Positions 57,027 to 60,320 of a DNA stretch of 64,000 nucleotides are shown here, one piece after another; position 1 is the stretch's first letter; the number at the start of each line of letters is the position of its first letter. The stretch lies in contig NZ_VNHU01000001.1 of assembly GCF_008124785.1 (NCBI RefSeq), forward strand, positions 248,001 through 312,000, read 5' to 3'. This DNA comes from Aquimarina intermedia. Lineage in GTDB: Bacteria > Bacteroidota > Bacteroidia > Flavobacteriales > Flavobacteriaceae. The notes beneath the pieces were generated by a model. The model made no database searches. It had not been told where the DNA came from and worked only from the letters and a program-made list of their open reading frames with translations. The translations under genes were made by a program, and so were the position numbers.

Positions 57027-58565
57027 TTATCCTATCACATTACCATCTTTGTCATGGAAATGATATTCTAAATATGTGTAAGCATCTCTAGGTATAATCT
57101 TTACCCATCGTTTATGGTCTAAAAACCATTTTGATCGGGTAGATGGAAAACCTTTTGTTAAAAAAGCAGCGATAAAAGGATGCGCACTAAGCGTTATCTT
57201 TTTCTTATCTTTTTTAATAATTCTTTCTAAATCCACCTTAATTTTGTCTAACAAAACTATTGGCGCCTCAATTTCGCCGTTTCCTCCGTTAGGATTATCC
57301 TCACGGGTTTTGATATTCATCTCTGGTCTAACACGTTGTCTTGTGATTTGAATAAGACCAAATTTACTAGGTGGTAAAATTTTATGTTTTGCTCTATCAT
57401 CTTTCATCTCTTCGCGAAGATGATTAAAAAGCGTTCTGCGATTATCCGCATTGTTCATGTCTATAAAGTCAACTACAATAATACCGCCCATATCTCTTAG
57501 GCGTAGTTGTCTTGCAACTTCAGTAGCACTAATGAGATTTACTTCAAGAGCTGTGTCTTCTTGATTTTTTGCTTTATTAGAACGATTTCCGCTATTTACG
57601 TCAATAACATGCATGGCTTCAGTATGTTCAATAACCAAGTAAGCTCCTTTGCTCATGGATACTGTTTGTCCGAAGCTTGTTTTTATTTGCCTTTCAATAC
57701 CGTATTTTTCATAAATAGGGGTATTGGATTGATGTAATTTAACGATAGATTCTTTTTTTGGTGCAATTTCGTGCACATAATCTTTGATCTGATTGTAGAG
57801 TACTTCATCATCCACGCATATTGAAGTAAATGAATCATTAAATACATCTCTCAAAATTGAGGATGCTCTATTCATTTCTCCAAGTACTTTGGTAGGATGC
57901 GGAGCTCTATGTAACTTTTTGGACATGGTCTCCCAGCGTTCAATCAGATTTTGTAAATCTTTGTCTAGTTCTGCGACTTTTTTACCTTCGGCTACCGTAC
58001 GAACAATAATCCCAAAACCTTTGGGCTTAATGCTTTTTACGAGTCGTTTAAGACGTTCTTTTTCTTTTGAGGATTCAATTTTCTGAGAAATTGACACTCG
58101 ATTAGAAAAAGGAACTAACACTATGTATCTACCGGCAATTGATAGCTCTGAGCTTATCCTTGGGCCTTTTGTAGAAATAGGTTCTTTTACGATCTGTACT
58201 AATAGCGATTGATTTGATTTGAGAACATCGGTGATAACACCGTTTTTATCAATATCATTGTCTATAGGAAAATCTTTTAAAGAATAATCCTTTAGTTTAC
58301 CTGTGCTTACACGTTTGATAAATTTCAATAAAGTCGATACTTGAGGTCCTAGGTCATGATAGTGCAAGAATGCATCTTTCTCATACCCCACATTAACAAA
58401 TGCGGCGTTTAAACCAGGAACAGCTTTTCGTATTTTGGCAATAAATATATCACCAACTGCAAAATTGCTGTCATCTTCTTCTTTGTGAAATTCAACAAGT
58501 TTTCCATCTTTTAATAAGGCAAAATCTGTAGATGAACCAGATCTAATGATCAATTCTTTGTTCAC
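57027..58565 (-). CDS. rng: ribonuclease E/G family endoribonuclease
   Basis: A 512-residue Rne/Rng-type endoribonuclease for rRNA maturation and RNA decay. An N-terminal S1 RNA-binding domain (about 30-120; FAVGDIFIAKIRKAVPGLNA, VNVGYEKDAFLH) precedes the catalytic DNase I-like domain with the Mg-binding aspartates in MHVIDVNSGN and GIIVVDFIDMNN, and the RPEMNIKTRE segment. The length fits RNase G rather than RNase E (no long C-terminal scaffold). I prefer GTG 58565 (MNKELIIRSGS) because the family begins this way; GTG 58586 seven codons upstream is also open. Upstream lie a 29-residue basic protein gene and HU. Confidence 0.94.
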   Translation of the reverse strand: MNKELIIRSGSSTDFALLKDGKLVEFHKEEDDSNFAVGDIFIAKIRKAVPGLNAAFVNVGYEKDAFLHYHDLGPQVSTLLKFIKRVSTGKLKDYSLKDFPIDNDIDKNGVITDVLKSNQSLLVQIVKEPISTKGPRISSELSIAGRYIVLVPFSNRVSISQKIESSKEKERLKRLVKSIKPKGFGIIVRTVAEGKKVAELDKDLQNLIERWETMSKKLHRAPHPTKVLGEMNRASSILRDVFNDSFTSICVDDEVLYNQIKDYVHEIAPKKESIVKLHQSNTPIYEKYGIERQIKTSFGQTVSMSKGAYLVIEHTEAMHVIDVNSGNRSNKAKNQEDTALEVNLISATEVARQLRLRDMGGIIVVDFIDMNNADNRRTLFNHLREEMKDDRAKHKILPPSKFGLIQITRQRVRPEMNIKTREDNPNGGNGEIEAPIVLLDKIKVDLERIIKKDKKKITLSAHPFIAAFLTKGFPSTRSKWFLDHKRWVKIIPRDAYTYLEYHFHDKDGNVIG

Positions 58566-58707
58566 TCTGATAAGATTTTTATCCACCTCGAATGTATCGA
58601 GACAGATGGATTAAACAAAATTTTCACAGGAATTTCTAAATTCCATTAAAATAAAGAGGCTGTAAGGTAGTCAAACAATCACTTTATTTTGATTTCAATG
58701 AACTGCT

Positions 58708-58740
58708 AAAAAGAAAAAGTAGTTAGAAACTACTTTTTCT
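58708..58740 (-). terminator. hairpin overlapping the stop codon of the 29-residue basic protein gene
   Basis: AGAAAAAGTAGTT (58712-58724) and AACTACTTTTTCT (58728-58740) form a perfect 13 bp stem with a 3-base loop. Read on minus it is followed by about five Ts. The stem includes the last codons and the TAG of the small gene. Confidence 0.7.
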
Positions 58741-58819
58741 TGTGTCGGTTAGCTCTTCTTCTCTTTTTACGCTTGTGCGTAGCTACCTTATGTCTTTTAC
58801 GTTTTTTACCACTTGGCAT
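58730..58819 (-). CDS. 29-residue highly basic protein, probable ribosome-associated peptide
   Basis: ATG 58819 to TAG 58730 encodes 29 residues beginning MPSGKKRKRHKVATHKRKKR, followed by RRANRHKKK. Twenty of the 29 residues are Lys, Arg or His; there are no acidic residues. It lies 26 bp downstream of HU on the same strand and upstream of RNase G, and ends in a hairpin. Near-identical short peptides next to RNase G are, as I recall, widespread in Bacteroidetes, and the composition resembles small ribosomal proteins (bTHX, bL34-like). A ribosomal role, possibly the Bacteroidetes-specific subunit protein described from Flavobacterium ribosomes, is inference. Confidence 0.8.
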   Translation of the reverse strand: MPSGKKRKRHKVATHKRKKRRRANRHKKK

Positions 58820-58845: not shown

Positions 58846-59136
58846 TTACTTAACTTCTACATTAGTTTTTACACCTTCGACAAACACTTTTGCCGGTTTG
58901 AATGCTGGTATATTGTGTGCCGGAATTTTGATTGTAGTATTCTTAGAAATATTACGACCGGTTTTTTCAGCTCTGGTTTTGATAATAAAACTTCCGAATC
59001 CTCTTAAGTATACATTATCTCCACTTTCCAAAGAGCTTTTTACTTCTTCCATAAATGTTTCAACAGTTGCCTGTACATCACCTTTTTCAATTCCTAGCTT
59101 CTCTGAAATTTTTGCTACGATATCTGCTTTAGTCAT
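58846..59136 (-). CDS. HU family DNA-binding protein
   Basis: A 96-residue HU/IHF-type histone-like protein. The N-terminal helices (MTKADIVAKISEKLGIEKGDVQATV) and the beta-arm signature GFGSFIIKTRAEKTGRNISKNTTIKIPA, read in parts, are diagnostic; the arm Pro at its tip (IPAHNIPAFKP) is present. It binds and bends DNA as a dimer. ATG start with a good promoter 41 bp upstream. The 29-residue basic gene follows. Confidence 0.95.
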   Translation of the reverse strand: MTKADIVAKISEKLGIEKGDVQATVETFMEEVKSSLESGDNVYLRGFGSFIIKTRAEKTGRNISKNTTIKIPAHNIPAFKPAKVFVEGVKTNVEVK

Positions 59137-59176: not shown

Positions 59177-59209
59177 CAAATATAAGAATTTAAATTCCAA
59201 AAAATCAAT
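59177..59209 (-). promoter_or_regulatory. promoter of the HU gene
   Basis: Read on minus: ATTG (59209-59206), a 21 bp spacer and TATATTTG (59184-59177), matching the Bacteroidetes -33/-7 pattern. It lies 40 bp before the HU ATG. Confidence 0.65.
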
Positions 59210-59267: not shown

Positions 59268-60320
59268 ATGAAATTCTCTAAAAAACTAATAATCTGGTAC
59301 TTAGAACATCAGCGGAATATGCCTTGGAGACAAACAAAGGATCCGTATAGCATTTGGTTGAGTGAAATAATACTACAACAGACACGAGTAAGTCAGGGTT
59401 TACCGTATTATTTGGCATTTAAAACCGCGTTTCCCACTGTTTTTGAGTTAGCTGCTGCCACAGAAGAAGAGGTGCTCAAATTGTGGCAAGGACTTGGATA
59501 TTATTCTAGGGCAAGAAATCTGCACTATACTGCACAATACATTGTCAGAGAACTTAATGGAGTATTTCCTAAGACTTACGACCAATTACTTAAACTTAAA
59601 GGTGTTGGTGATTATACTGCCAGTGCCATTGCTTCTATTTGTTATAATGAAGTTGTTCCAGTGATAGATGGGAATGTATACCGAGTTTTGTCTAGAGTAT
59701 TTGGGTTAGATACTCCTATTAATAGTTCCCCGGCGTTAAAAGAATATAAAAGTTTGGCATCACAGCTAATTGATGTATCTCGGCCAGCCACTTTTAATCA
59801 GGCTATGATGGAGTTTGGAGCGATACAATGCAAGCCACAAAGCCCCGACTGTACCATTTGTCCTTTTGCTGACAGATGCTTTGCATTACAACACGCTAAG
59901 GTTTCAGAATTACCGGTAAAACTTAAGAAAACAAAAATTAAAAAGCGATACTTTAATTATTTTGTCGTTAGATTACCGGATAATACACTTTTAATACAAC
60001 AGCGCAAAAATGTCGGAATCTGGGAGGGTCTTTACGAATTTCCTTTAATAGAATCAAACAAACTCATGGAGCCTGAAGCATTAGAGAAAGAAGAAGCGTT
60101 TTCTCATTTAGTGAGAAACAAATCTTTTTCACTAACCAGATATAAAGAGGCGCCTATTGTTCATAAGTTATCGCATCAACATCTGTATACTAGATTTTAT
60201 GTGTTAGACATCTGTGAAGCACCTAATTTAAAGGTGGATCAGTCCTTGATTCCTGTTGCAACTATTCGGGATTATCCGGTCCCTGTTCTAATTGGTAATT
60301 TTATAGAATCGTTTTTTTAG
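59268..60320 (+). CDS. mutY: A/G-specific adenine glycosylase
   Basis: MutY removes adenine mispaired with 8-oxoguanine. The 350-residue protein has the helix-hairpin-helix LKGVGDYTASAIAS, catalytic Glu33 (WLSEIILQQTR) and Asp134 (PVIDGNVYRVLSR), and the [4Fe-4S] loop Cys188-x6-Cys195-x2-Cys198-x5-Cys204. The C-terminal NUDIX-like domain (about 225-350) that recognises 8-oxoG is present (NVGIWEGLYEFPLIE, HKLSHQHLYTRF). ATG start. Followed by ssb, gldE and gldD, a gene order known in gliding flavobacteria. Confidence 0.97.
   Translation: MKFSKKLIIWYLEHQRNMPWRQTKDPYSIWLSEIILQQTRVSQGLPYYLAFKTAFPTVFELAAATEEEVLKLWQGLGYYSRARNLHYTAQYIVRELNGVFPKTYDQLLKLKGVGDYTASAIASICYNEVVPVIDGNVYRVLSRVFGLDTPINSSPALKEYKSLASQLIDVSRPATFNQAMMEFGAIQCKPQSPDCTICPFADRCFALQHAKVSELPVKLKKTKIKKRYFNYFVVRLPDNTLLIQQRKNVGIWEGLYEFPLIESNKLMEPEALEKEEAFSHLVRNKSFSLTRYKEAPIVHKLSHQHLYTRFYVLDICEAPNLKVDQSLIPVATIRDYPVPVLIGNFIESFF

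Follow-up and report, generated by a model that had tools for sequence, protein, structure and literature searches.

A short gene between HU and RNase G genes of Aquimarina intermedia almost certainly encodes the known ribosomal protein bS22

Introduction

What is the function of a 29-residue, strongly basic protein whose gene is lodged between those for the DNA-binding protein HU and an RNase E/G family ribonuclease? The locus lies in the window, the whole 64,000-nucleotide stretch of Aquimarina intermedia DNA that was analysed. The original prediction, made from the sequence itself, proposed that the peptide acts on nucleic acids or the ribosome and might be a lineage-specific ribosomal protein. 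The analysis leaves very little doubt that the gene encodes ribosomal protein bS22, for which a role in a small-subunit pocket and in a bridge between the subunits is proposed; bS22 is already a known protein, and a real gene for it is an ordinary finding. The features discussed below are:

58730-58819, minus strand: bS22 gene, 29 aa, ATG start, TAG stop
58846-59136, minus strand: gene for an HU family DNA-binding protein, 96 aa, upstream neighbour (Pfam PF00216, E 7.9e-28)
57027-58586, minus strand: gene for an RNase E/G family ribonuclease, downstream beyond the hairpin (TIGR00757, 410 bits, above the cut-off; PF10150, E 2e-100)
58711-58741, minus strand: perfect 14-bp stem (loop of 3 nt) that takes in the stop codon and the three Lys codons before it; T-rich sequence follows
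59268-60320: mutY, divergent, upstream of HU
59177-59208, minus strand: TTG-N21-TATATTTG upstream of HU, a weak motif that resembles a promoter consensus

Identity of the gene product

The product of the gene is MPSGKKRKRHKVATHKRKKRRRANRHKKK. It contains ten Lys, seven Arg and three His residues and neither Asp nor Glu; the 20 basic residues of 29, the lack of acidic ones and the clear ATG start were all read correctly in the original prediction. A sequence search of the PDB at E<=10 returned three chains only, all ribosomal or of the same family: 7jil_5, identical in 28 of 29 residues (residues 1-29, E 4.2e-11); 9i5v_10, an "AURKAIP1/COX24 domain-containing protein" (E 2.7e-8); and 8fmw_V, "30S ribosomal protein bS22" (residues 1-28, E 2.1e-6). 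A profile built from 16 sequences recovered the same chains (E 6e-15, 6e-13 and 1e-11, respectively) and no other. Flavobacterial ribosome structures had been suggested as one place to look for the peptide, and the near-identical chain is indeed found in 7jil, which we take to be the F. johnsoniae ribosome. The matches to 7jil_5 and 8fmw_V, chains deposited as S22/bS22, run the full length of the protein, whose 29 residues, 59% Lys/Arg (17/29), fit the definition of bS22 as a chain of about 28-35 residues, with a Lys/Arg share of some 55-65% and without a separate domain; its relatives are 29-35 aa long.

The PDB table gives 7jil_5 two molecule names, "30S ribosomal protein S22" and "50S ribosomal protein L38". 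The second is probably a labelling slip, because sections of PMC10618245 treat F. johnsoniae bS22 (30S) and bL38 (50S) as different proteins. The same sequence is also present in 9oz9, 9ozn, 9ozz and 9p0e, and depositors have used both names, S22 and L38.

Family models recognize this protein poorly. Scans of Pfam and NCBIfam with the window's peptide gave no model at E<=1. The COX24_C domain (PF08213) of mS38, its mitochondrial counterpart, gave no match to the window's copy, nor was there a match in its own genome at E<=10; at E<=10, six of the 16 relatives gave matches below the gathering cut-off (best E 0.063), and NCBIfam produced a weak, unrelated match in two of the 16. Because these COX24_C tests fail, the tie between the window's bS22 and mS38 rests on structure and literature. 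The original prediction was right to propose a ribosomal protein, given the 28 identical residues in 7jil_5; its suggestion that the protein is lineage-specific is unsupported, because spirochaetes (the Borrelia chain 8fmw_V) and actinobacteria also have bS22.

Proposed role on the ribosome

What would such a small protein do on the ribosome? In Borrelia, bS22 lies in a pocket formed by 16S helices h2, h27, h44 and h45 and contacts H68 of the 23S rRNA, as described in part of PMC10618245; C. acnes bS22, in the relevant section of PMC10085706, sits between h27, h44 and h45 and contacts H67, forming an extra intersubunit bridge. For F. johnsoniae bS22, too, the h27/h44/h45 pocket is the known binding site. 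Mitochondrial mS38 occupies a similar site, where it touches h44; when mS38 is lost, the initiation of translation is affected for some messages (PMC6582356). By homology with these proteins, the window's bS22 most likely has the same binding site and bridging role. It would fold as a bent helix in the small-subunit pocket (h2, h27, h44, h45), where its Lys and Arg side chains would neutralize the rRNA backbone; it would also (i) steady upper h44 near the decoding centre and (ii) add a bridge to 23S H67/H68.

Could bS22 have a second activity away from the ribosome, such as the antibacterial one reported for the free Cutibacterium acnes protein? In its free form, the C. acnes protein is reported to inhibit both the growth of bacteria and protein synthesis in cell-free systems (PMC10085706). 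For the window's protein we consider this very unlikely: the window shows no sign of export, the 29 residues include no signal peptide, and inhibition in vitro is common among free basic peptides.

Gene neighbourhood

The bS22 gene begins 26 nt after the HU stop codon, and the two genes would be co-transcribed into an mRNA ending at the hairpin over the bS22 stop codon. The TTG-N21-TATATTTG motif upstream of HU resembles the Bacteroidota promoter consensus; it is not used as evidence here because it occurs at chance frequency in the window (seven matches on the plus strand and three on the minus strand, against a mononucleotide-shuffle mean of 5.15 per strand).

The gene order MutY (divergent)-HU-bS22-RNase G extends well beyond this genome: of 42 loci from the same family, order and class, 41 have HU upstream on the bS22 strand and all 42 have RNase G downstream. 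Of 23 loci from other classes, searched by tblastn at a limit of 1e-3 over flanks of about 1.5 kb, 11 have HU upstream and none has RNase G nearby, so the HU link is older than the RNase G link or more widely kept. The linkage that the original prediction invoked is a real gene order across the class; it fails outside the class and is not needed to infer function.

This conserved order is also what favours a different reading, in which the product is a nucleoid-associated or general RNA-binding peptide that works with HU or RNase G and has no place on the ribosome. The peptide persists in the 23 loci from outside the class, whose flanks of about 1.5 kb hold RNase G in none and HU upstream in 11, and a near-identical chain has been solved in ribosomes; the PDB match largely refutes the non-ribosomal reading, which we regard as highly improbable.

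Conservation of the protein and the hairpin over its stop codon

A bS22 match at E<=0.001 was found in 288 of 296 genomes sampled from the phylum. The open reading frame is thus confirmed as a real gene rather than a chance one, and the conservation across Bacteroidetes that the original prediction proposed to look for is there: the peptide is far from confined to this genome. The start codon is ATG in 64 of 65 loci, the window's included, and GTG in the other. Among 32 copies from the same family and order (30 from the phylum search or the window, plus L040 and L041), all 27 codon columns vary, whereas 22 of the 27 residue columns are invariant. Compared with the window's copy, the other 64 loci differ at a mean proportion of 0.81 of synonymous and 0.11 of non-synonymous sites; the latter value is an overestimate, because a path from one Arg codon to another is scored as non-synonymous also when the two proteins are identical. 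Across the bS22 profile, M1, P2, G4, K6, R9, K11, H15, K16, R17, K18, K19, R22, R25, H26 and K27 are invariant. The protein is under purifying selection phylum-wide. One candidate locus, L031 in genome G199 (E 0.065, with an internal stop), falls within high-GC sequence that holds a 699-aa ORF and was rejected as spurious.

What, then, is the hairpin at the end of the gene? Its arms (58728-58741 and 58711-58724) pair perfectly and cover the stop codon, as predicted, over 14 bp rather than the 13 originally counted. The region folds at -19.5 kcal/mol, against a mean of -8.8 for shuffled sequences (z -4.3), and none of 200 shuffles did as well. The stem is probably an intrinsic terminator of the bS22 mRNA. 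It is not listed by the terminator scan, which missed it because the scan requires at least three G-C pairs and the stem is A/T-rich. A stem over the stop is present in 21 of the 65 loci, all of them among the 26 from the same family, and in none of the remaining 39; the carriers are L001, L003, L004, L007, L016-L030, L040 and L041. In three further loci of the family (L008, L010 and L012), a long stem begins at or just past the stop. This distribution suggests a terminator that borrows the lysine codons, a family-level feature rather than part of the protein's function. The notion that the ORF is spurious, its apparent conservation due to a terminator that is itself conserved or to lysine codons of low complexity, draws on the AAA/AAG-rich codons and on the overlap of the stem with the 3' end of the gene, but is refuted to the point of being negligible by the varying codons and constant residues described above and by a peptide conserved in 65 of 65 loci, far more than carry the stem.

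Absences in Fodinibius and the Salinibacter family

Known and nearly universal in the phylum, the bS22 gene has little importance beyond annotation, where it is easily missed: it has no Pfam or NCBIfam match here, and it was missed in Borrelia. Its absences would be of modest importance, because a single genus, Fodinibius, would offer natural ribosomes with and without bS22 and so a test of its role.

The eight sampled genomes without a match belong to three genera: three to g97, three to g77 and two to g49. The g49 absences may be assembly gaps, these genomes being fragmented (310 and 450 contigs). In g77, the genus Fodinibius, the bS22 gene of three retaining genomes sits between HU and a convergent gene of 216 aa. 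The three genomes that lack it keep both flanks (HU 91-95% and the neighbour 71-79% identical), and bS22 was not found between them. Across loci with the convergent neighbour, bS22 is present in 15 of 16 and missing in Fodinibius halophilus (L088). Fodinibius loci without bS22 between HU and the convergent gene are L075, L076 and L077 (HU at 1501-1794) and L088; overall, 7 of 12 Fodinibius genomes are without the gene. In the Salinibacter family, to which g97 belongs, 24 of 27 genomes have no match, Salinibacter ruber DSM 13855 (G147) among them, and the three genomes of genus g148 keep bS22; among high-quality genomes, 13 of 14 are without a match. A profile search at E<=10 of 16 lacking genomes gave only partial matches, in 4 of the 16 (E 0.59-0.79), against E 5e-14 to 7e-14 in four retaining control genomes. 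Mapped onto a 29-row RNase G tree, in which some branches are long and parts are unsure, the pattern of absence takes three changes, at least two of them required by branches with good support.

Why would these ribosomes do without bS22? Salinibacter is salt-loving. The hypersaline habitat of Fodinibius suggests that it, too, is a salt-loving genus (part of PMC9909488). Tentatively, and with more doubt than conviction, we raise the idea that salt-loving members of the phylum (the Salinibacter family and part of Fodinibius) can dispense with bS22 and have lost it repeatedly, possibly through high ionic strength: in or around the cell, it might make a small electrostatic clamp on rRNA unneeded or unable to bind. 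The salt cause is a guess, because protein acidity, taken as a proxy, fits Salinibacter and not Fodinibius. In the Salinibacter family, the acid-minus-basic fraction of RNase G ranges from +0.006 to +0.050 in nine of nine lacking genomes (loci L121-L123, L125, L127 and L129-L132) and is -0.034 and -0.045 in two retaining ones; in Fodinibius, RNase G of the seven lacking genomes (-0.039 to -0.007) is not more acidic than that of the five retaining ones (-0.025 to -0.014). Among the papers listed from the limited literature searched, none dealt with bS22 gene loss, be it in Salinibacter, Fodinibius or halophiles. If the idea holds, the bS22 pocket of these ribosomes would contain nothing, or its place would be taken by ions, by changes in the rRNA or by another protein.

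Comparison with known systems

The closest known counterpart is F. johnsoniae bS22 (7jil chain 5), which shares with the window's protein 28 of 29 residues, the start and the basic make-up; it differs in having Ala in place of R21 and one extra C-terminal residue. Borrelia burgdorferi bS22 (8fmw chain V) also matches over its full length and, as reported in part of PMC10618245, occupies the same 30S pocket, but it is more diverged from the window's protein, and its gene starts with GUG. The bS22 proteins solved in Mycobacterium and Cutibacterium ribosomes share the site and the basic composition (PMC10085706 and PMC6582356), with 37% identity between the C. acnes and F. johnsoniae proteins (PMC10085706); no mycobacterial chain matched at E<=10 in either the PDB sequence search or the profile search. 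Further afield, two proteins hold analogous positions, as set out in part of PMC10618245: mitochondrial mS38 (AURKAIP1/COX24), a bent basic helix, and eukaryotic eL41, a straight one.
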